From contig LBQR01000004.1 in assembly GCA_000990945.1 (NCBI GenBank), forward strand, positions 1 through 38,647: a stretch of DNA of 38,647 nucleotides, written 5' to 3'. This DNA comes from Candidatus Moranbacteria bacterium GW2011_GWF2_35_54. GTDB lineage: Bacteria > Patescibacteriota > Minisyncoccia > Moranbacterales > UBA9337. Shown here in pieces: positions 5,388-23,916 of the stretch. A program made the position numbers and the translations under genes. Below the pieces are notes generated by a model. The model did no database searches. It was given only the letters and a program-made list of their open reading frames with translations, and was not told where the DNA came from. The first letter of the stretch is position 1. Each line of letters begins with the position of its first letter.

Positions 5388-8204
5388 ATGGACGCATTAT
5401 TTTCTTTTTTAAATCATTTTAATTATCTTTTGCTTTTTTATATCCCCATCGGCATCATTGGATTTTGGCGCTGGAGTGTTTGGATTATTCGAAAAATAAT
5501 TTCTCTTTTTTATCGTCCGCCCCAGGGAGATTATCAAACCACTCTTTCCATCATTACTCCGGTTTATAATGAAGATCCGGGAATGTTTCAACTGGCCTTG
5601 CAGTCTTGGAAAATCAACCAGCCGGATGAAATTATTGCTGTGATTGACTATACAGACAAAAGTTCAATTGAAATTTTCAAAGAATTTTCAAAGAATTTTT
5701 CCGGTGCCAAATTAATCGCCACCAAAAAACCTGGCAAGCGCCCCGCCCTAGCCGATGGCGCTCGCACAGCCACAAGTGAAATTATCGCCTTTGTTGATAG
5801 CGACACTATCTGGAGCCCGGATATTAAAGACGACCTACTGGGTCCCTTTGCCGACACTGAAGTTGGCGGACTGGTAACCAGGCAAGATATTTTAAAGCCC
5901 GATACTCTGGCGCGAAAATTATTTAAAATTCTTTTAGACGACCGCTATCTGTTTGAATATCCTTTTCTCGCTACCGTAAGCGACGCTATGCTTTGTATCT
6001 CTGGACGAACTGCCGTCTATCGCCGAATCGCGATCATTGATGAATTAAAAAAGCTCGAAAATGAAAAGTTTTGGGGCAAAAAAATGATTAGTGGCGATGA
6101 TAAATCCCTTACCAATTTTATTCACGCCAAGGGCTGGAAAACTCGCTATCTAAAAAACGTTACAGTTTACACCAATGGCACGCCAGACATCGTCAGCTAC
6201 CTCAAACAAAAAATACGCTGGACCAGAAACGGTTTGCGTTCTGATTCCCGGGTTTTATTGAGTGGATGGCTTTGGAAAAATCATAAAATATTAGCTCTTC
6301 ACATGCTGGACAAATTAGTTTCGCCCGTAACACTTCTGATTGGCCTTTCTTATTTCATAATCTCGCTTTATTTCGGCCACTGGCAAATCGCTCTTATTAT
6401 TGCCATTTGGTGGATTTTGAGCCGCATCATAAAAATATTTCCCCACCTCAGAGAAAAGCCTGCTGACATTTTTATCTTGCCACTCTACATCATCACTACT
6501 TTTGCCATCGCCGTAATTAAAATTTATGCTTTAGTCACCATCGATAAACAAAGTTGGATTACTCGCTGGGATAGAAGCCGTTTAAAAAGTTTTACTTTTT
6601 TAGAAAGCTTCGCAACTTACATAGCAACTTTTTCTATGGTTTTTGGAATATTTTTCATTATTTTTTCTTACAAAAATACCACTTTAAAAATTGTTTCGCT
6701 CCAAGAGTTAGAGGCATCAACACTTCAAAGAAATAATCTTAAAAATAAAAATAAACTTCCTTCAATTTTTACACCAGAAAAACCGCGCCCCGCTAGCGCT
6801 GAATTGGAAAGCCAAGGAATCGAACTTGCCAAGGAAAATCAATCCGATCCTTACGGCTATTACATCTCAAAAATCGACGAAACTTTGCCTTTATTAGAAA
6901 AAAGATTTAATTTAATCTCAACGGGGAAAATTTTAAACGCCGATACAAAAGCGCCCATTCCAAGATTCACAATTCTTAGCCCCGGCACAAAAGTTGCTAT
7001 TGCCATAAAAGATTTGCACAGTCCCATCAGTCTTAATTTATTAAACGTTTTTGCCAAGCCCATAAACGTTACCTATGATGCGCCTAGCAACACAATTTTT
7101 GTAAAACAGGGAGGAAGTGTCGCGACACTCGGCAGAATAAATCGCGCCCTCGCTCTGGAAAATAAACATCTTCTCCAGCAGCTATCTCCAGGGGAATGGA
7201 TTTTGCGGGCCAATCTTTATATCGGCAAAGATGTAACTTTAATCTTAAATAGTCCTGAGACAAATTATTTAAAATTAAAAAGCAACCGCGATGATTTTGT
7301 CTGGCTTCGCTCCGAAACTGGCAACATGCTTTTTTCCAAAACAAAAATTACCTCTTGGGACGAGCAAAATAACACGCCTGATTTTAATTATGCAAATGGC
7401 CGAGCTTACATCACTGCCAAAAACAGCGGGCGCATGGACATCCTTAATTCAGAGCTTGCTTACCTCGGCTATGCCGGACTGCCCAAGCGTGGCGGACCAT
7501 TTGGCGGTTCCTATGGAGTTTCTTGGAAAATCAAAAGCCAAGGATTGCATGACCGCTTGCTTACCGGCGTAGTAACTGGCAGCAAATTTCACAATAACTA
7601 TTTTGGAGCTTATACTTTCGGCGTAACGGGAATAGTTTTTTCAAAAAACGAATTTTATGACAACATCGAATACGGCCTAGATCCGCACGACGATTCTAAT
7701 AATTTATTAATTGAAAATAATCTAGCTTATCAAAATGGCAATCATGGAATAATTCTTTCCAAGCGTTGTTTCGATAATGCCATCGTTGGCAATATCTCTT
7801 ACAATAACCGTTTGCATGGCATAATGCTGGACCGCAGTTCTAATAATAATCTCGTTCAAAAAAACACAATCTACGGCAATGTGGATGGCATTGCAATCTA
7901 TCAGTCCAATAGAAATATTATTTTGGATAATAATATCCATAACAATATCCGTGGCATCCGGTTGAATGAGGGCGCCCGGGAAAATTTCTTAAAAAATAAT
8001 TCTATCACCAAAAACAGCAATGGTTTCTATATCTACGATCAAGCCGAGAAAAATATTCTGGCAAATAATTCTGTTTTGGATAATAAGATTGGAATTACGT
8101 TAAAAAATGCCAACCATAATATCTTTCTTGATAATTTCAAAACTCTTGAAAATACCAAGGATGGCGTTATAGCAAAAGATGCTTATGAAAACAATATTCA
8201 GTAA
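5388..8204 (+). CDS. Fusion of processive GT2 glycosyltransferase (Alg8/NodC/HAS-like) and AlgG-like right-handed beta-helix (mannuronan C5-epimerase-like)
   Basis: N-term: SIITPVYNED, VDSDTIW (DxD), QKIRWTRNG (QxxRW) and TM helices. C-term: beta-helix repeats with DPHD motif (EYGLDPHDDSNNLLIENN...HGIILSKR) characteristic of AlgG. Confidence 0.85.
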   Translation: MDALFSFLNHFNYLLLFYIPIGIIGFWRWSVWIIRKIISLFYRPPQGDYQTTLSIITPVYNEDPGMFQLALQSWKINQPDEIIAVIDYTDKSSIEIFKEFSKNFSGAKLIATKKPGKRPALADGARTATSEIIAFVDSDTIWSPDIKDDLLGPFADTEVGGLVTRQDILKPDTLARKLFKILLDDRYLFEYPFLATVSDAMLCISGRTAVYRRIAIIDELKKLENEKFWGKKMISGDDKSLTNFIHAKGWKTRYLKNVTVYTNGTPDIVSYLKQKIRWTRNGLRSDSRVLLSGWLWKNHKILALHMLDKLVSPVTLLIGLSYFIISLYFGHWQIALIIAIWWILSRIIKIFPHLREKPADIFILPLYIITTFAIAVIKIYALVTIDKQSWITRWDRSRLKSFTFLESFATYIATFSMVFGIFFIIFSYKNTTLKIVSLQELEASTLQRNNLKNKNKLPSIFTPEKPRPASAELESQGIELAKENQSDPYGYYISKIDETLPLLEKRFNLISTGKILNADTKAPIPRFTILSPGTKVAIAIKDLHSPISLNLLNVFAKPINVTYDAPSNTIFVKQGGSVATLGRINRALALENKHLLQQLSPGEWILRANLYIGKDVTLILNSPETNYLKLKSNRDDFVWLRSETGNMLFSKTKITSWDEQNNTPDFNYANGRAYITAKNSGRMDILNSELAYLGYAGLPKRGGPFGGSYGVSWKIKSQGLHDRLLTGVVTGSKFHNNYFGAYTFGVTGIVFSKNEFYDNIEYGLDPHDDSNNLLIENNLAYQNGNHGIILSKRCFDNAIVGNISYNNRLHGIMLDRSSNNNLVQKNTIYGNVDGIAIYQSNRNIILDNNIHNNIRGIRLNEGARENFLKNNSITKNSNGFYIYDQAEKNILANNSVLDNKIGITLKNANHNIFLDNFKTLENTKDGVIAKDAYENNIQ

Positions 8205-9504
8205 AAAAATTTACACCCAGCTGTTTCTCTCTTTTTTAATTATGCTAATTTTTTCCGCTATTGGCGTCCTAATTCTCAGAAAGACTCAACAATTGGAAAA
8301 AGAACGTTTTTTCGCTGGAGAACTTCAAATCGATACCATTTCAGATTCGCGCGCGCTGGGTTATTCCGGCCAAAGAAAGCTTGTTCAAGACAGCGCGGGA
8401 AATATTTTTGTCGGCTACAGAAAAGATTACCAGAAAAATGCAGAAATCTTTATCGCGAAAATTTCCCAAACCCTATCTGATTGGCGCATCTCCGGCACCG
8501 AAAAACCAATCATCTCCATTGAAAGAAATAATGACCAGCGCGTCCCTTCCTTGGCAATTGATGCGAAAAATACTCTGCATGTTGTCTGGTATGGCTCCGA
8601 CACAGAAAACAAAAAAAATAATCGCCAGATAAAATACTCCCGCAAATCTTCAGACGCTGAAAATTGGGAAAGCTGGCGCAACATCGCCTATGTCAGCGGC
8701 TATGAAAATGATGAACTTTGGCAAGAGCATCCAATGCTTTTGGCTGGAAAAGACGATACCCTCTATGTCGCTTGGGAGGGGAAGGATGAAGAAAATGAAA
8801 AACAGCAGATCAAATTTAGCAAATCAAATACTGGCGGAGCCGTTTGGACAAAATGGAAAAATATTTCTCCCTCAAAAAATAATACCCACTCGCGACCCGC
8901 TTTGATTGAAGACAAAAATGGAAAACTTTATTTATTTGCTTATTCATCTTTGGGAAATGAAGATAATCTGCAACAGATCCAATATGCATCTTCCTCAGAT
9001 CAAGGAGAAACTTGGACCGCTTGGCAAGCAATCTCTGATTCCTTTTTTGACTCCAGGCACATCAGTGTGACTATTGATAAGCTGGAAAAAATACATGTTG
9101 TCTGGAGAGCTCAAACGATGATTGATGGACCAAGCCAAATAATTTACCGCAATTTTTATGACGACCGCTGGTCCGAAATTGAAATCGTTTCTCCTTCAGA
9201 AAATTACCAATTTTTTCCCAATATTGGCACCAATCAATCTGGCGCAATTTATGTTTCTTGGATGGAAAGCCCGGATCCAGCCGAATTTCCCCGAGAAAAT
9301 CCAACTGGCAGTCTGGGATTAATTTCTTTTTTGAAAAAAGAAAGGTTTCAGCCTCCATTCAAAATTTCCGAAAAAAATAATATTCTTTATCCCAATCTAA
9401 GCGAAAAAAATAACCTTGATAAATTTGTTCCGGTTTTTTATGCCCAACAACTAAACGAAAAAGAACTTAACTTAAAACTTAAATTTTTCGACAGTAGCAA
9501 ATAA
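8179..9504 (+). CDS. Membrane-anchored BNR/Asp-box (sialidase-like beta-propeller) protein
   Basis: N-terminal TM segment; repeated S-x-D-x-G-x-T-W-like blades (SSSDQGETWTAW, SNTGGAVWTKW); overlaps the upstream ORF by 26 nt. Confidence 0.7.
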   Translation: MLMKTIFSKKIYTQLFLSFLIMLIFSAIGVLILRKTQQLEKERFFAGELQIDTISDSRALGYSGQRKLVQDSAGNIFVGYRKDYQKNAEIFIAKISQTLSDWRISGTEKPIISIERNNDQRVPSLAIDAKNTLHVVWYGSDTENKKNNRQIKYSRKSSDAENWESWRNIAYVSGYENDELWQEHPMLLAGKDDTLYVAWEGKDEENEKQQIKFSKSNTGGAVWTKWKNISPSKNNTHSRPALIEDKNGKLYLFAYSSLGNEDNLQQIQYASSSDQGETWTAWQAISDSFFDSRHISVTIDKLEKIHVVWRAQTMIDGPSQIIYRNFYDDRWSEIEIVSPSENYQFFPNIGTNQSGAIYVSWMESPDPAEFPRENPTGSLGLISFLKKERFQPPFKISEKNNILYPNLSEKNNLDKFVPVFYAQQLNEKELNLKLKFFDSSK

Positions 9505-9543: not shown

Positions 9544-10743
9544 TTATGAACTACACTTTATAATAGGATCGAATTTTTTGGAAAAATCACCCACGCAGAT
9601 TCCCTTGCCACAATTTGTAACAGTATTTCCGCAGATTGTTTGCGGAGAACGCATAACTTTTACACCGCCATTTTTATTGTCATAAATATTATTAGCTTTT
9701 TCATCGCCACCTAACCGCACTCCCGCGCCCAAACAGCCGAAGATTTGATTGTTACGAAAAATATTTCCATTGCCACGCGCATCCAAGCCGGCCGATTCAG
9801 TATCTTTCTGTCCGGTACATTTATTTCTTTCCACAATATTTCCCGAAGAAGATTCTTTGATATCGACACATTCATTGCCTTGCGTATCAATCACATTATC
9901 ATGAATCCAGTTCTCGTTAGATTGATCCGGATCAGTGGTTGGATTTTTTCCATCCTTTAATTGTTCGGGAGCCGTTCCGATATAAATCCCTTCGCCGTTT
10001 TTTCCGCCACCATCAAATTTAAAATCAACCACTCCACAATTAGTGATTACATTATTAACAATTTCGTTTTTGGTCGCAAAATAACGCAAACGGATGCATT
10101 CTCCGCCCGCATTTTTAATATTCATATTTTTAATTTTAAATCCAGTTACGCCATCTTTTTTTTCTTTCCCAAGCGCATAGATTAATTTATCTCGATAGCT
10201 CTCCACTTTTTTGGCTGAGTCAAAAAAACCATCAACAGTAAACCCGTCCAAAACAATATGATCATGATTAATTTCGATTACTCGTCCTTTTCCTCCGCCC
10301 TTCACAATAGACTCCGCTGTCCCCTTGATTATAATGGGAGCATCGATATTGCCATTGCGTTTGGAAACAAAGTCTTGCAGATATGTTCCTTTGGTTAGAT
10401 TTATTGTCTCGCCTGACTGAGCCAGATCAATAGCTTTTTGTATCGATTTAAAAGCTTTGACTTCAGACAACCCATCGGCGCTATCGCTACCAGATGGACT
10501 GACATAATAATTTACTGCCACGACATCGGGAGTGGCATCTGTTGCCTCTTTTCTGACACTCTCTTCGGAAATAGCTTGATATTCCAGAGGCTTATCCTCC
10601 ACTACAGTCATCTCTCCGAATGCAGGCTCTCCACTAACAGCTTGCACTGGCGTATTGTTTTTTGCTGAGAAAAAATAATACAATAAAAAAAATAACCCAA
10701 TAATAAAAAGAGTTATCGAAACAAAACCAAATAATTTTTTCAT
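9544..10743 (-). CDS. Membrane-anchored right-handed parallel beta-helix protein (pectate-lyase-like/DUF1565-like)
   Basis: TM anchor; YYVSPSGSDSADGLSEVKAFKSIQKAIDLAQSGETINLTKGTY motif typical of beta-helix lyases; N-rich coil repeats. Confidence 0.75.
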   Translation of the reverse strand: MKKLFGFVSITLFIIGLFFLLYYFFSAKNNTPVQAVSGEPAFGEMTVVEDKPLEYQAISEESVRKEATDATPDVVAVNYYVSPSGSDSADGLSEVKAFKSIQKAIDLAQSGETINLTKGTYLQDFVSKRNGNIDAPIIIKGTAESIVKGGGKGRVIEINHDHIVLDGFTVDGFFDSAKKVESYRDKLIYALGKEKKDGVTGFKIKNMNIKNAGGECIRLRYFATKNEIVNNVITNCGVVDFKFDGGGKNGEGIYIGTAPEQLKDGKNPTTDPDQSNENWIHDNVIDTQGNECVDIKESSSGNIVERNKCTGQKDTESAGLDARGNGNIFRNNQIFGCLGAGVRLGGDEKANNIYDNKNGGVKVMRSPQTICGNTVTNCGKGICVGDFSKKFDPIIKCSS

Positions 10744-14458: not shown

Positions 14459-15574
14459 ATGCAAAAGTTTTTCATTAAACAGCGTTACTCCATATTTGGA
14501 GTAATTACCATAGTTATTCTAGTCACATTTTTATTCTCAAAGATGAATAGTAACAGCGCTAACAAAAATATTCCAACAGTTCAAGTGGTAAAAATTATTA
14601 CAGCGCATGCGGCTGACAAAAGTATACCATTAGAAATTTCCGGATTTGTTCGCGGAGAAAATAGGGCTGATATTTCCCCAGCAAGTAGCGGGAGAATTTT
14701 ACATATATTCAAGCATGAAGGAGAAACAGTAAAAAAAGGCACTGTCCTTGCAACAATCGATGCAAATGTTTCTAACGCTCAAATTGCAGCAGCGTCAGCA
14801 AATGTTGATGCATTAGCTAAAACATTAGTTGATAGCAAAAAATATTATGACCAACTTGTCGATCAAGCTAAAAGTGACTCTGGCTCAAACAATGAGGCAA
14901 CGAAGAGTGCTAAGCGTGGCCGTGATCTCCAAATTCAAGCAGCTAAAGATCAGCTAATTGCAGCTCAAGGAGCGTTGGGTGTCGCCCAGGCTAATAAAGA
15001 TAATTCAACCCTCGTTGCTCCATTTTCGGGAACAATAACAACCATTTATGGACATGAAGGCGGATTTGCAAACTTTTCTATGCCACTTGTCAGTATCAGT
15101 ACTCAAAATAGCAAGGAGCTGGAAACTTATGTTTCAGCCACCAATGGACAGAGTGTTACCGTTGGAGCAATTGCAACATTACAAACCTCAAGTGGACAAC
15201 CTGTCTCTGGTGTAGTAACTACCGTTTCAGCTGGCAGTGATACACAAAGTCTAAAGACACTCCTACGCATACACATAGACGATACTTCTGATACTATTTA
15301 CTTGGGGGATTTTTTGCATGGGCAGATTTTAATTCCAAGCACCAAAGAGGCAGTTTCGATTCCAAGAAACGCAGTCGTTTCTCGCGGAGGAGATCAAATT
15401 GTTTTTACTCTAGATGATAATAATATTGCCAAAGAACAATCAATAAAAATAAGCTCTGAACATAATGGTCTAATTGATGTGACTCAAGGTTTAGAAATAA
15501 ATCAAAAAATCGTAACAGAGGGTCAACAATATTTAATCAATGGATCAGTCACAAAACCTTATGAATCAAATTAA
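14459..15574 (+). CDS. RND efflux periplasmic adaptor (HlyD/MFP family)
   Basis: N-term TM; lipoyl-like GRILHIFKHEGETVKKGTVLATID; LVAPFSGTITTIYGHEGGF. Confidence 0.9.
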   Translation: MQKFFIKQRYSIFGVITIVILVTFLFSKMNSNSANKNIPTVQVVKIITAHAADKSIPLEISGFVRGENRADISPASSGRILHIFKHEGETVKKGTVLATIDANVSNAQIAAASANVDALAKTLVDSKKYYDQLVDQAKSDSGSNNEATKSAKRGRDLQIQAAKDQLIAAQGALGVAQANKDNSTLVAPFSGTITTIYGHEGGFANFSMPLVSISTQNSKELETYVSATNGQSVTVGAIATLQTSSGQPVSGVVTTVSAGSDTQSLKTLLRIHIDDTSDTIYLGDFLHGQILIPSTKEAVSIPRNAVVSRGGDQIVFTLDDNNIAKEQSIKISSEHNGLIDVTQGLEINQKIVTEGQQYLINGSVTKPYESN

Positions 15575-18500
15575 TATGTCAAACCAAGAGCATCCAAAAA
15601 AATTAAGCTTAGCTGGACGCATGGCTAGTCTTTTTGTAAAAAATAAAGAGCTAAATATTTTAGTTATGCTTTTTATCGTAGCTTGGGGCATCGGTAGTTT
15701 CATCTTGATGCCAAAAAACTACAATCCTGATATTGTTGCGCCAGCTTTTACTATCACGACTGCTTTTCCTGGAGCGACTGCTCAGCAAGTTCAAGAGCTT
15801 GTTACTCGTCCTATGGAAGATGCGATAAGTGAGCTTCCTGATATCGATCAACTTATTTCTCATTCATTTGATGGGGGCCAAAGCGTTGTGATGGTGCAAT
15901 TTAAAGTTGGCACTCCCGCTGAAAATGCAAAAATTTCACTCTCTCAAAAATTTAAGGATAACATGTTTCAAAAACCAATTGGTGCCAGCGATCCATCTAT
16001 GATAACGTTGGATCCTGATGATGTTCCAATAATTTCCATAGCACTGACATCCGACACTCGCTCTCCACAAGCCTTACGAAATTTAGCTTTCGACTTAGCT
16101 GATGAACTAAAATTAGTAACTGGTACCTCAAAAGTAGCTGTAGTTGGCGGGCTTAGCAATAATCTACAAATAGAATTAAATGCCGAAAAATTGTCCGCCT
16201 ATCATTTAGCTGTTTCAGATGTAATTAACACACTCAATACTTCCAACGGCATATATACAGCCGAACCCTTAAAAAATAATAACGATACAGAAACATTGAG
16301 AGTTAACGGCAGCATAGCATCGACCGAAGATGCTGCGCATATCGTCCTAATCCCAAGTCAGGATAAACCCATCGCCCTTGGCGATGTGGCAATAATTACG
16401 CAGGGACCTGGGGAGATAACTAAAAATGTACACTTCACAGAAAAAAATTCTGACCCAAAAAATGCAGCCTACGTTACGATTGCAAAAATCAAAGGTGCCA
16501 ATATAAGTTCGGTTACAAATGCTGTTCGAGAAAAACTTGCCACTGCAAAAAAACAAGGTCAATTTTCATCAGTCAATTTTTCAGTCTTGAGAGATGATGG
16601 CGAAACTGCCCATGATGAAATATTTACTCTCACCAAACATCTTATTTTATCAATCGTTATTGTGGTAATCATTTTAATGGCATTTTTAGGAATTAGAAAC
16701 TCCTTAATTGTGGCTATTTCTATTCCACTTACCCTTTTGACTTCTTTTGGAATTGGGCTCCTGGCTGGTCAAACTGTAAATCGCATTACGCTTTTTGCAC
16801 TCATTTTGGCCTTAGGACTTCTCGTTGATGATGCCATTGTGATTATTGAAAATGTGCACAGAACAATAAAAAATAATCCTGGCGGTCGCAAATCAACTCT
16901 AATTATCCAAGCAGTTGATGAGGTTGGCGTGGGAGTATTTATGTCCACAATTACAATACTCCTCGCTTTTATTCCTATGGCATTTGTAAGTGGCATGATG
17001 GGTCCATATATGAGCCCTATTCCATTTTTCGTATCTGTAACTCTTTTGGTTTCATTGTTTTTTGCCTTCACTATCAATCCAGCGCTTACTGGAATGTTTT
17101 CTTCGCACAAGGCTGAGGAAAAAGAAAATGTGTTTGTGAAATCAATTCATAAAATTGAAAATCACTATGCCACATTAATTGGTAATCTCGCAAAAAATAA
17201 GCGTAAAAAAAATATCGTATTAATCTCAGCTGGAGTTTTGCTTTTTCTCTCTTTGCTTTTGCCCCTATTTAAAATAGTACAATTCCGTATGTTACCGAAA
17301 GCCAACAAAGAACAATTTTACATTTATTTAAATATGCCAAATGGAACCACTTACACCAAAACAAATGAAGTATCCACTGAGTTGGAAAAAGCATCGCTTA
17401 ATTCAAAAGAAGTTACAAGTGTTGAGAGCTTTATCGGTACAGCACCCATATCTGATTTTAATGGACTCTTCAAAGGAAGTTTTATGCGCTCTCAGGAGAA
17501 TCAAGCAACCTTAAAAATAAATCTTACACCCCACACCCAACGTAGCGAAACATCAGAGCAAATCGCTCTGCGCCTACGTGACACTTTAAACCAAGAAGTT
17601 CTCACTCATGTTGGTGATGCAAAAATAATAGTTGTTGAAGACCCGCCAGGGCCACCAGTGCGCTCAACTTTTTTCCTAAAAGTCCAGGGTAATGATCAGC
17701 AGCTCTTGGACTCTACTGCCAAAGATTTAGCACAAATATCTAGTAGCATCGCTGGCATTGTCGATTTAAATACATCTTCATCTCAACGATCCATTGAAAA
17801 ACAATATAAAGTTGATATTGAAAAAGCTGGTCGAATTGGGGTTGCACCAGCGGTAATTATTGAAACTCTTCACGCGGCGCTATCAGGCATAAATGTTGCG
17901 CGCTATCAAACAACTCTGGCTAATACTGATCGTCAAGCTGAACAACAATTCGTAATTTTGCGCATGAAGCAGTCTGATCGGACCGATATTAATGACCTTT
18001 CTCATATCACTGTAAAAAGTACTCTTGGCGCCACTGTGCCCATATCGGAGTTATTAATTGAGGAACCTCTTGCCGCCCAAAGTGAACTTGCCACAGACGC
18101 GAGACAACAAGTTATATATGTTAGCGGAGAAATGGGAGCCAGAAGTGTTATGTATGCTGTCTTTGACCTCTTTCCTAAACTCTTTGGATATCATCTCAAT
18201 GATGGCACTGGACACATAACATCATGGTCGCCACTAGGAGTAACTTACACAAATGCAGTTGGTCAAAGTGTAGATGTTCGCATTGATGGAGAGTGGAAAC
18301 TTACACTTGAAATTTTTCGTGATCTTGGCACAGCTATGGCAGTAGCATTACTACTTATATATTTTGTATTGGTTATTCAAATTCGTTCTGTTGTGGTGCC
18401 TCTTCTTATTATGGCAACTATTCCACTAGCATTGATTGGGGTGCTTGTTGGATTTGCAGTCCTGGGCGCAACTAAAGGTACATATTTCAATGCCACATCC

Positions 18501-18809
18501 ATGATTGGAGTTATTGCGTTGTCTGGTATCGTAGTGAAAAACGCTATCATATATCTGGCTTATCTTGATGAGCTTAAAGAGCGTAAGTTGCCACTTACTG
18601 ATGCTTTAATGGAAGCAGGACGTGTCAGATTACTTCCGATTCTTCTAACATCCCTTACTGCAATCTTGGGATCACTCACTATTATTGCCGACCCAGTTTG
18701 GGAAGGTTTGGCTTGGGCAATTATCTTTGGGCTTTCAGTTTCAACTATTCTAACGCTTATTATATTCCCCCTATTATATCAAACATTTGAAGGAAAAAAG
18801 TGGGATTAA
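15540..18809 (+). CDS. RND efflux permease (AcrB/MMPL-type, HAE-like)
   Basis: 1089 aa; FPGATAQQVQELVTRPMEDAISELPDI, LVDDAIVIIENVHR, SMIGVIALSGIVVKNAIIY; overlaps the adaptor ORF by 35 nt. Confidence 0.95.
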   Translation: MDQSQNLMNQINMSNQEHPKKLSLAGRMASLFVKNKELNILVMLFIVAWGIGSFILMPKNYNPDIVAPAFTITTAFPGATAQQVQELVTRPMEDAISELPDIDQLISHSFDGGQSVVMVQFKVGTPAENAKISLSQKFKDNMFQKPIGASDPSMITLDPDDVPIISIALTSDTRSPQALRNLAFDLADELKLVTGTSKVAVVGGLSNNLQIELNAEKLSAYHLAVSDVINTLNTSNGIYTAEPLKNNNDTETLRVNGSIASTEDAAHIVLIPSQDKPIALGDVAIITQGPGEITKNVHFTEKNSDPKNAAYVTIAKIKGANISSVTNAVREKLATAKKQGQFSSVNFSVLRDDGETAHDEIFTLTKHLILSIVIVVIILMAFLGIRNSLIVAISIPLTLLTSFGIGLLAGQTVNRITLFALILALGLLVDDAIVIIENVHRTIKNNPGGRKSTLIIQAVDEVGVGVFMSTITILLAFIPMAFVSGMMGPYMSPIPFFVSVTLLVSLFFAFTINPALTGMFSSHKAEEKENVFVKSIHKIENHYATLIGNLAKNKRKKNIVLISAGVLLFLSLLLPLFKIVQFRMLPKANKEQFYIYLNMPNGTTYTKTNEVSTELEKASLNSKEVTSVESFIGTAPISDFNGLFKGSFMRSQENQATLKINLTPHTQRSETSEQIALRLRDTLNQEVLTHVGDAKIIVVEDPPGPPVRSTFFLKVQGNDQQLLDSTAKDLAQISSSIAGIVDLNTSSSQRSIEKQYKVDIEKAGRIGVAPAVIIETLHAALSGINVARYQTTLANTDRQAEQQFVILRMKQSDRTDINDLSHITVKSTLGATVPISELLIEEPLAAQSELATDARQQVIYVSGEMGARSVMYAVFDLFPKLFGYHLNDGTGHITSWSPLGVTYTNAVGQSVDVRIDGEWKLTLEIFRDLGTAMAVALLLIYFVLVIQIRSVVVPLLIMATIPLALIGVLVGFAVLGATKGTYFNATSMIGVIALSGIVVKNAIIYLAYLDELKERKLPLTDALMEAGRVRLLPILLTSLTAILGSLTIIADPVWEGLAWAIIFGLSVSTILTLIIFPLLYQTFEGKKWD

Positions 18810-20025: not shown

Positions 20026-23000
20026 TTATTCTTCAAACATCTCCTCATCTCTCATTGCACTTTCTTTAATTTCCCCTTCAGCATATTCCTTAATATCCTT
20101 ATAAAATTCATATACAGGTGTGCCAATCTGGTATTTTTGCATAAGTTCATAGGATGCATCTCTCATTTTTATATCCTCAGGCATTGGTTGGCCAGCAGTG
20201 CCACTTTTGGAACGTGAATTAGCTCCCCAAAATAAATTACTTCTTACGCTTTTATAGCATTCTTCTCCTAAGTTTTTAGCTGCATTTAATAATTTTTCAA
20301 CAAAATCAGGATTCTCAAAAATAAAATCATGATATGCATGATGTATTAATGATCCTATTCCCATTATTTTTGATTTATCCTGGGAATCAATCGATTCCGT
20401 GAGAATACCCAAGGTAGTTTCATTAAAATTTCCAGTAAGAACTTTAAACAATTTTGCATACGCATGATTATCTTTCTTATACTCACATGCAACATCCCTA
20501 ATTTTTCGGAGGACTTTTTCGTAATCAGGCGAGTCTTTTAGTGGAGAAACTTGTTTATGCAGTGAATGACCAAATGGCTCATACGTGTATTTTTTTCTTT
20601 TCTCGCCTATCTTAACCCTATTCAATAAAAAATCGATAAACATCTCCGGAAATTTTTCGCTAACATATTTTAGGAAATTTTCAATCCAGTAATGTCCTAT
20701 TTTTTCTACTTGAGTCAGTTTCGAAAAAATCATAGCGATTTCCTCTTTATCAAGAGAATCTGGATCTATAGCATACGCCTTGTTAATCTGTTCAACATAT
20801 TCTTCAGCCACTTGTTCATCTTTCCCAACTTTAGCCAATTTCATAAGTTTCATTCCTAGATTGCGATCATTTTTTCCTATGCGTCCAATTGCCCTAACAG
20901 CCAATCTCCTTACAGTTGGATTTCTGTGCGTAATTAACTTCTTTATATTTTCAATATCTAGTTTGTTTATTTTTTCCACAGAAACTCTATATCCATAATA
21001 ACTTGCCATTGAAAACAATAACTTCTCATCCTGAATTTCAATAGCTTTTCTGGCAATTTTTGATGAAGCGTCATGATCTGTATCATCCATTCCATACAAC
21101 AAAAAATCAACCTGCTTTCTAAGTAATGCTTTCTTGCTTCTTATCGTTATGGTACACAATTTATTTGCATAATCAGGATACAATTTTGCGAGCTCTGACA
21201 GAAACATGCTAGAGCTATAAAAGCTGGTGCTCAATTCAAGCTCCTTGAAAATTTCCTCAATTTTTTTAAATCCTATTTCAGCTTTTGGATATTCTTTTAT
21301 AAATTTTTTAGCTGTAGACTTTTGAAAATTTAGATTAATTTTTTGTCTGTCCTCATATGAATATTTTTCATCTTCAGCTAACCATTCTTTCCCATCGGGT
21401 CGCATTAAGCATTCGGTTAAATTTGTCTCAAATGATTTAGACAAGCTTTCGAATAATTTGCGAGCGCCATCTCTTACTCCATTATTTCTACTTCTCTTAA
21501 TATACCAAACAATGTCGTCTTTTATGGCTATATGAACCAAGGGTTCTTTTCTACTTTTAGATATTTTCCTTAAACTATCCAATGCTGCTAATTGTTCACT
21601 TTCCCATTTTTTATGTTCCTCTTCTGAAATTGTTCCATTAAAATGTGCAGTTGGCTCAGCTAAGGCCTTGTGCAAACTTGAAATCGCACGTAAAGCGATA
21701 GATAGATCACTTTTTAAAGCATATTCAGTAGCAATATTTAATGCTTCATTCCTTATTGTAGCCGTATTTTCCTTACTTACCATGAAAGGATGAAAGGTTA
21801 TTTTATTTCCTTCATATGTATCAGAATGAGAAGACTTTTCAAATAGCGGATCTAATACATCAAAGGTAGAATGGGTATATTTGTGAGCATCATCATTTTC
21901 TAGCCATTTTTTTACAGCCTCGAGCATTAGTTTATTAACTTGCACAATTTTACCTATGTCATATTTAGCCAAGCCCTCGAGAACTCTCATAGCATGCTCG
22001 GGATGTTGATTTGTGGCTCTTTTATCATTTCTTCCTAGCTCCCAAAGGATATTGGAACAACGGGGCAAATATTCAAGATGATAAGATATTTTTTGAAGCA
22101 AGGCGGGCAATTTTGTCAGACAATCCTTATGGCTAAAGCCGTATAGTTTAGAAAATTTTTTATCTTCAGGTTTAATTGCTGGATTATGTATAACATGCTC
22201 AATAATGCGCAGTGTTTGTTCAGGCTGATAATATGCAACCGATTCTAATTTCTTAAGAATCTCGCTTCTTTCGTAATGATTTCCATTTTTGATACTTTCT
22301 TCTATTTTTTTCCAGATATCTTCCAATAAATTAACCTTTCCTTTCGACCTGCTCACTCTCCAGTCAAGCTCACCTAAATTTTGCAGAATTTCTTCAAAAC
22401 ATCTTTCCTGAAAATGATCAAAGGCTTTTTGCGCAAAACCATTCGGCTTCCCGGATACGGTTAGACAAGCTCTGGAAACTATATGATCAGCAAGTACGTC
22501 TGGAATTATTCTGATCATGCGTCCTCGTCTTACTAACACGCCATCAGTCTCCAGTAAATCCAAAATATTTATAACGTCAGTTTTGTCTAATGGTAAAAAA
22601 GATGCCAAAAGATCAAGCACAGTTTCATCTGATGGATTTATTGGCTGTATAATAGCCAGTATATTTATAAAGCTCTTTAGAATATTTGTGTCATAACCTT
22701 CTTCTATTTTCCCCAATGCAACGTCACTAAATCTATCCAGGACAATTCTTGTAAAATTCTCATCCTGCTCCAATAATTCAAGCGGGATGTCCTTTTGAAC
22801 AATTAACTTACCACCAACGACTAATATCAAGGGGCAATCTTTTGCTTGTTTTGCCAAATGCTCGATCAATCTCTTATTTGCGCTTCCAAGAACCTGTTCT
22901 GCCAACTGCTTTGCTTCTTCTAAAGAAAGTTTTTCAACCTTCTCATTTTCAATAATAGAAGGATCATAATTATTTTGGATAAAAGTAGATCTAACGGGAG

Positions 23001-23916
23001 TAGATCCTTGTGGACGAGTAGAAAGTACGAATTTGATGCTTCTAGGATGTGCTTTTAGTAAATTGATGATATTCGCTATATCCTCACGACGATGAGCGTC
23101 ATCAATCACAATAACATATGACTCTAATTCTAGATCTTTAATATCTTCTGGCCTTACCGACATTTCATTCTGTAAAAATAGCAGTTTTACTCCAGGATGC
23201 TTTTCGCTGAATTTGCCTGCAAATTCCTTTAATACCTTTGTTTTTCCAATGCCGCCTATGCCTTCCAAAATAAACACAGCCCTGTCTGATTCAACAAAAT
23301 CATCAAGTTTTTTGATAATCCCATCCCTGCCCACTAAATCCCATGCCTGATTGAAAAGATCGTTTTTATTTATCAATCTTTCAAAATAGTATTCTGAAGA
23401 AATAAAGGGAGAAACGCTTTTCAGGCCAAGAAATTTTTCAGCCCACCTATGACCAAAGTGATTAACAACCAGCCTTCTTTGATTTTCAGGAGATAAGCCA
23501 GACTTAATTTTTCTGCAAATATCATCAGCATCAAGCACATCCCACTTTTTGTTATTTCTGCAGACATCTCTGACTCCAGTTCCCACCAATGAGGATACGA
23601 GTATGGTGTAACTATCAGCTTTATAGGTAGTGTCCTTAATAGCTTTCTTCGCATTGGCTTTTGTAAAGGATTGATATTCCTTGCTTTGGTAAGTTATATG
23701 CTTACCATCCTGCTTATCCACAAACATATCTATGCCTCTCTGCTTACTTCCCTTAACTCCATACTTGTGAACTTTTGTAGCAGATCCTGTATGTAACGCA
23801 TTAATAAAATCAATGCAAAAAGATTCAAATTGTTCCCATGAAATAAAATTCAATGGAAGAAGCTCATCGTGCGATATTATTGGCTCAGGAATTAATCCCT
23901 TTTGTTTTTTAGGCAT
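20026..23916 (-). CDS. Mrr-like PD-(D/E)xK nuclease + STAND/P-loop NTPase + HEAT-like repeats; candidate antiviral STAND (Avs-like) protein
   Basis: N-term GSKQRGIDMFVDKQDGKHITYQSKEYQSF (D...QxK); Walker A GIGGIGKT; Walker B SYVIVIDDAH; VLSTRP; C-term HRNPTVRRLAVRAIGRIG repeats. Confidence 0.8.
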   Translation of the reverse strand: MPKKQKGLIPEPIISHDELLPLNFISWEQFESFCIDFINALHTGSATKVHKYGVKGSKQRGIDMFVDKQDGKHITYQSKEYQSFTKANAKKAIKDTTYKADSYTILVSSLVGTGVRDVCRNNKKWDVLDADDICRKIKSGLSPENQRRLVVNHFGHRWAEKFLGLKSVSPFISSEYYFERLINKNDLFNQAWDLVGRDGIIKKLDDFVESDRAVFILEGIGGIGKTKVLKEFAGKFSEKHPGVKLLFLQNEMSVRPEDIKDLELESYVIVIDDAHRREDIANIINLLKAHPRSIKFVLSTRPQGSTPVRSTFIQNNYDPSIIENEKVEKLSLEEAKQLAEQVLGSANKRLIEHLAKQAKDCPLILVVGGKLIVQKDIPLELLEQDENFTRIVLDRFSDVALGKIEEGYDTNILKSFINILAIIQPINPSDETVLDLLASFLPLDKTDVINILDLLETDGVLVRRGRMIRIIPDVLADHIVSRACLTVSGKPNGFAQKAFDHFQERCFEEILQNLGELDWRVSRSKGKVNLLEDIWKKIEESIKNGNHYERSEILKKLESVAYYQPEQTLRIIEHVIHNPAIKPEDKKFSKLYGFSHKDCLTKLPALLQKISYHLEYLPRCSNILWELGRNDKRATNQHPEHAMRVLEGLAKYDIGKIVQVNKLMLEAVKKWLENDDAHKYTHSTFDVLDPLFEKSSHSDTYEGNKITFHPFMVSKENTATIRNEALNIATEYALKSDLSIALRAISSLHKALAEPTAHFNGTISEEEHKKWESEQLAALDSLRKISKSRKEPLVHIAIKDDIVWYIKRSRNNGVRDGARKLFESLSKSFETNLTECLMRPDGKEWLAEDEKYSYEDRQKINLNFQKSTAKKFIKEYPKAEIGFKKIEEIFKELELSTSFYSSSMFLSELAKLYPDYANKLCTITIRSKKALLRKQVDFLLYGMDDTDHDASSKIARKAIEIQDEKLLFSMASYYGYRVSVEKINKLDIENIKKLITHRNPTVRRLAVRAIGRIGKNDRNLGMKLMKLAKVGKDEQVAEEYVEQINKAYAIDPDSLDKEEIAMIFSKLTQVEKIGHYWIENFLKYVSEKFPEMFIDFLLNRVKIGEKRKKYTYEPFGHSLHKQVSPLKDSPDYEKVLRKIRDVACEYKKDNHAYAKLFKVLTGNFNETTLGILTESIDSQDKSKIMGIGSLIHHAYHDFIFENPDFVEKLLNAAKNLGEECYKSVRSNLFWGANSRSKSGTAGQPMPEDIKMRDASYELMQKYQIGTPVYEFYKDIKEYAEGEIKESAMRDEEMFEE

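Follow-up and report, generated by a model that had tools for sequence, protein, structure and literature searches.

Polymer synthesis and C5-epimerisation are normally carried out by separate proteins within a large envelope complex. The Alg8/Alg44-AlgG-K-X-E machinery is multi-protein, and its epimerase AlgG is a separate periplasmic protein in Pseudomonas (PDB 4nk6/4ozz; NF038177). AlgG probably uses the histidine of its DPHD motif to remove the proton, with Tyr314 positioning the water that gives a proton back and an arginine screening the charge (PMC4444821). The locus described here follows a similar logic of dehydrogenase, GT2 and AlgG-type epimerase, but places the synthase and the epimerase in one polypeptide, with no Alg44, AlgK, AlgX or AlgE in the window, that is, in the whole 38,647-nucleotide stretch of Candidatus Moranbacteria DNA that was analysed.

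The protein in question, encoded by a single-copy gene in its genome, by its sequence combines a membrane-bound GT2 synthase with a beta-helix of the AlgG type (Table 1). The GT2 half matched the Pfam families PF13641 (1.8e-19) and PF00535 (1e-14). The epimerase domain matched the NCBIfam AlgG model NF038177 over residues 592-881 (4.5e-40), and the fusion matched PDB AlgG 4ozz with an E-value of 3.5e-30 for the single sequence and 1.5e-45 for the family profile. These matches bear out the union of GT2 synthase and AlgG-type epimerase that a preliminary description of this DNA had proposed, and the features named there were all present in the 938-residue frame, namely the VDSDT, GDD and QKIRW motifs, the transmembrane (TM) segments, and a beta-helix with EYGLDPHDDSNN...HGIILSKR. 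The NF038177 score of the fusion, 137.8 bits, was far under the equivalog cut-off of 700, and an AlgG-type protein from a Rhizobium plasmid likewise stayed below it (287.5 bits). On Rhizobium plasmids the AlgG-type domain lies near the C-terminal end of proteins of about 1250 residues in alginate-type operons (L056:6526-10266 and L057:6499-10266). AlphaFold2, run with two-sequence alignments, gave a mean pLDDT of 31 for the whole fusion and 34 for the epimerase domain, and thus no confident model.

Table 1. Positions of the fusion gene, its parts and its neighbours in the window.
Feature	Position	Strand	Basis
'Half' nucleotide-sugar dehydrogenase, 307 aa	4421..5344	+	TIGR03026, PF03721 + PF00984
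Fused synthase-epimerase, 938 aa	5388..8204	+	Intact ORF; Pfam, NCBIfam and PDB matches
Predicted cytosolic GT2 catalytic domain, residues 50-281	5535..6230	+	Pfam, HAS profile, motifs
Predicted C-terminal membrane segments, about residues 301-430, including WITRW	6288..6677	+	Hydropathy, HAS alignment
Linker, about residues 486-545, seemingly LysM-descended	6843..7022	+	PF01476 in relatives
AlgG-type right-handed beta-helix C5-epimerase domain, residues 592-881	7161..8030	+	NF038177, PDB AlgG
DPHD catalytic motif, D765-P766-H767-D768	7680..7691	+	Invariant in 16/16 family members
Membrane-anchored BNR beta-propeller protein	8179..9504	+	PF13088, 3.1e-9
Beta-helix (DUF1565) protein	9544..10743	-	Domain matches; recurrent neighbour

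The fusion was found at full length in 15 further genomes (G066, G091, G082, G090, G063, G074, G037, G337, G403, G507, G492, G500, G604, G636 and the lake bin L021), which brings the total to seven families; it is therefore neither a product of chance nor a chimeric or frameshifted assembly. The homologues are about 880-946 residues long, that of G403 stopping at a contig end, and the L021 contig is apparently the same as that of G505. Within the order, 14 of 131 genomes gave an AlgG match, which lay in open frames of 901-960 residues in 12 of them; of the other two, the G034 frame is truncated by the end of its contig, and in G001 each half has a frame of its own. In a survey of the class, 6 of 384 genomes matched, every frame being 934-949 residues long. 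No stand-alone AlgG was seen in the 131 genomes of the order or the 384 of the class. In G001, which belongs to the same genus, the break between synthase and epimerase falls within the linker (L030:4461-7125), possibly through fission, pseudogene formation or an assembly error. A contig scan of genomes gave only one close locus, no relatives were found in viral contigs, and among plasmid records the epimerase domain was matched only in Rhizobium. We did not find a GT2-AlgG fusion described in the open-licence literature. Mean pairwise identity across the family was 52% for the GT2 part and 55% for the AlgG part, compared with 24% for the linker, and the distance matrices of the two domains were correlated (Mantel r 0.85, a value reached by none of 5000 permutations). 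These values indicate that both domains are constrained and have been inherited together.

The fusion and AlgG are homologous over about 290 residues. The equivalent of Tyr314 (Y762) and the DPHD motif are invariant in all 16 members. The spacing between the catalytic His and Arg had been put forward as preserved, and numerically this is correct: H767 and R793 are 26 residues apart, and the distance from His to Arg in the PDB AlgG chain is also 26, in agreement with the catalytic numbering of AlgG, His319 and Arg345. In both HMM alignments, however, a one-residue gap puts Arg345 opposite K792, and R793 opposite the next residue, a Glu. R793 is therefore not homologous to Arg345, and the literal spacing was dropped as evidence of homology. 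What is shared with AlgG at the Arg345 position is a basic residue, in 15 of 16 fusion members: 11 of them have Lys and 4 have Arg, the sixteenth having Val. R793 is kept in 15/16. In the one deviating member, G403 (L034:3292-6012), V and G stand in place of the two basic residues that follow the HGII motif. Its locus also has no half-dehydrogenase directly upstream, and the contig ends just downstream. G403 may represent a natural loss of epimerase activity, judging from these substitutions, and such activity may accordingly not persist in every member.

Where the epimerase domain resides depends on the membrane topology. Hydropathy revealed one N-terminal segment and several past the GT domain, the last spanning roughly residues 404-430. 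Past the first TM segment the flanking sequence is positively charged, a positive-inside pattern, and Lys and Arg before the last TM segment were at least as numerous as those after it in 14/14 members examined. Should the segment before WITRW be an interface helix, as in BcsA/HAS, the chain would exit the last segment outside. Between this segment and the beta-helix lies a linker that looks LysM-derived: PF01476 was matched in the relative G337 (2.2e-10) and in three others (0.003-0.01), with no match in the linker of the window's own fusion. LysM domains bind cell-wall glycans, and a linker of this type favours an epimerase outside the membrane. The TM pattern, the charges and the linker together suggest that the epimerase domain is probably outside, in keeping with the proposal that the polymer meets it on leaving the channel, and in this arrangement, unlike that of AlgG, it would be tethered to the synthase.

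The scanned genes of the window include no Alg44, AlgK or AlgE, as had been noted before. Omp85 was not found in the genome (1.22 Mb, 92% complete; relatives about 0.5-1.4 Mb), while the same search was positive in 7 control genomes. Genomes of this size make a Patescibacteria-type (CPR) host likely. The lack of Omp85 fits export across one membrane, and given that the search detected no factor for assembling an outer membrane, export machinery of the AlgK/AlgE type would be unneeded. A weak PilZ match, a potential Alg44 candidate, occurs elsewhere in the genome. The window also encodes an RND-type permease with an HlyD-type adaptor (14459-18809, + strand), in a genome without detectable Omp85.

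We then compared the GT2 half with known polymerases. DxD, GDD and QxxRW, along with TM segments past the GT domain, mark it as a processive membrane GT2 of the HAS/NodC/Alg8 type. GKRxAL, DSD/DCD, SGR, GDD/GED and QxxRW are kept in 16/16 members, the window's fusion having GKRPAL, DSD, SGR, GDD and QKIRW. W(I/V)TRW, also kept in 16/16, aligns with WGTR of hyaluronan synthase. The fusion thus has in common with hyaluronan synthase and NodC the GT2 motifs, the WGTR-like WITRW, and the plan of a one-protein polymerase with C-terminal TM segments; it differs in bearing a C-terminal epimerase, in belonging to a separate lineage, and in having SGR where a HAS-like reference has SGP. Hyaluronan synthase chains were matched at 8.5e-12 with the single sequence and 5.3e-25 with the family profile. 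The fusion GT2 profile scored 215 bits against a Curtobacterium plasmid GT2, 169 against a HAS-like plasmid GT2, 130-139 against NodC, and 83-89 against Rhizobium Alg8. The top-scoring reference (plasmid pTCL, L062:5917-10488) adjoins a glycosyl hydrolase and a full-length sugar dehydrogenase, and its locus is possibly another uronan cluster. In a midpoint-rooted tree with few reference sequences and several unresolved forks, the fusion family was placed between Alg8 and the HAS/NodC clade on long branches to both, grouping neither with Alg8 nor inside HAS/NodC. On profile scores and tree, the reading as an Alg8 orthologue was rejected. The N- and C-terminal segments of the GT2 can be aligned to Alg8. 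Of the alginate-like minimal system envisaged earlier, the compactness and the lack of Pseudomonas periplasmic and outer-membrane parts in the window stood, whereas the GT2 turned out to be HAS/NodC-like and remote from Alg8. The sugar of the predicted polymer could therefore be either D-mannuronate or D-glucuronate. The genome encodes both GMP_PMI of the GDP-mannose route (473.7 bits) and GalU of the UDP-glucose route (329.7 bits), each over its cut-off, so that the donor may be GDP- or UDP-linked.

A prominent feature of the locus is the short dehydrogenase gene upstream of the fusion. Its product matched TIGR03026 over the cut-off (1.4e-63, 215 bits) and shares with UDP-glucose and GDP-mannose 6-dehydrogenases the NAD-binding domain (PF03721), the central domain (PF00984) and the catalytic Cys in GSCLPKD. 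In contrast to those enzymes, it has no C-terminal nucleotide-binding domain (PF03720), and this domain and the EPGL loop region are missing in all aligned half-dehydrogenases, which are 291-340 residues long. No stand-alone PF03720 was present in the genome, whose only further sugar dehydrogenase is a full-length protein similar to UDP-ManNAc/GlcNAc dehydrogenases. Of the 17 loci for which upstream sequence is available, 16 have the short gene immediately before the fusion; the one without it is that of G403. Among the 131 genomes of the order, strong matches were confined to those with an AlgG match (13/14, against 0/117 of the rest). A sugar dehydrogenase without the C-terminal domain was not found described in the open-licence literature. 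We propose that the half-dehydrogenase supplies the uronic acid donor, a role made uncertain by the loss of the domain in which the nucleotide is usually bound.

On the other side, the gene for the BNR protein overlaps the 3' end of the fusion gene by 26 bases, and a homologue adjoins the fusion in several relatives. A DUF1565 homologue adjoins it in G090, G063, G074 and G037 and lies near it in L021, so that both proteins recur beside the fusion in several families. The propeller protein could be a polymer-binding protein or a lyase, and the same is possible for the DUF1565 protein. Farther away, the window encodes a 1296-residue protein with STAND NTPase matches (nSTAND_NTPase5, NB-ARC; 20026-23916, - strand), possibly related to defence.

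The earlier reading of the locus is thus partly supported, and we think it probable that the fusion is a compact polyuronate synthase which also acts as C5-epimerase on its own product where the chain leaves the channel, the half-dehydrogenase being its partner. The half-dehydrogenase would oxidise a nucleotide sugar at C6. By homology to HAS, the GT2 domain would build the uronic acid chain on the cytosolic side and thread it through the membrane segments of the same protein. The LysM-derived linker, in line with the predicted topology, may keep the beta-helix on the outer face, by the channel exit and the cell wall. There, if the chemistry follows that of AlgG, H767 would abstract the C5 proton, K792 and/or R793 would neutralise the carboxylate, and Y762 would hold the proton-donating water, so that some residues of the polymer would be turned into the C5 epimer.

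This reading has narrower forms that differ in the sugar. One is a true minimal alginate system, with GDP-mannuronate made into polymannuronate by the GT2 and guluronate formed by the AlgG part. It is to mannuronan C5-epimerases in particular that the epimerase domain is related, GMP_PMI is present, SGR/TGR, GDDK and RWxxN features are common to the fusion GT2 and Rhizobium Alg8, and the match of the half-dehydrogenase to GDP-mannose dehydrogenase 1mfz is almost as good as its best PDB match, to a UDP-glucose dehydrogenase. Since Alg8 scored well below the HAS-like and NodC sequences with the GT2 profile, and a long branch separates it from the fusion in the tree, we regard this form as rather unlikely. 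The other is a glycosaminoglycan-like polymer of glucuronate, drawn from UDP-GlcA with or without UDP-GlcNAc, in which the AlgG-like domain would produce L-iduronate. It has in its favour that hyaluronan synthases are the best characterised relatives of the GT2, that a HAS-like plasmid GT2 beside a nucleotide-sugar dehydrogenase scores well, that UDP-glucose dehydrogenase leads the PDB matches of the half-dehydrogenase, and that GalU is present; AlgG-type epimerases, however, are known to act on mannuronan. The human heparan epimerase belongs to a family other than AlgG. It is this human enzyme that a bacterial glucuronyl C5-epimerase resembles (PMC4432689). We hold the glucuronate form, too, to be doubtful.

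A different possibility is that the beta-helix is a non-catalytic guide that binds the polymer, or a secretion scaffold. A structural role of AlgG separable from its activity is indicated by the title of a study (Gimmestad 2003, cited in PMC4444821), G403 lacks both basic residues, and Lys replaces Arg345 in most members. Against this, the Tyr and DPHD are invariant throughout the 16 members and the basic residue is retained in all but one, which makes a non-catalytic domain improbable.

Beyond the preliminary description, the analysis adds the LysM-type linker and the conserved half-dehydrogenase. We tentatively suggest, at somewhat less than even confidence, that these genes may belong to a so far undescribed lineage of uronan synthases from bacteria with small genomes and a single membrane, in which a non-Alg8 GT2, a LysM-type tether and a C5-epimerase form one protein and a dehydrogenase without the nucleotide-binding domain completes a two-gene route to epimerised polyuronate. 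The half-dehydrogenase offers a direct test case for the dispensability of that domain. The mannuronan synthase of brown algae has yet to be validated functionally, and the GT2s of these algae reportedly lack homology to Alg8 (PMC11468063); a non-Alg8 GT2 with a mannuronan-type epimerase in the same chain gives a starting point for finding non-Alg8 uronan synthases. A single chain that possibly does both steps would be a compact coupling of synthesis and epimerisation, and may provide a tool for making defined uronans.
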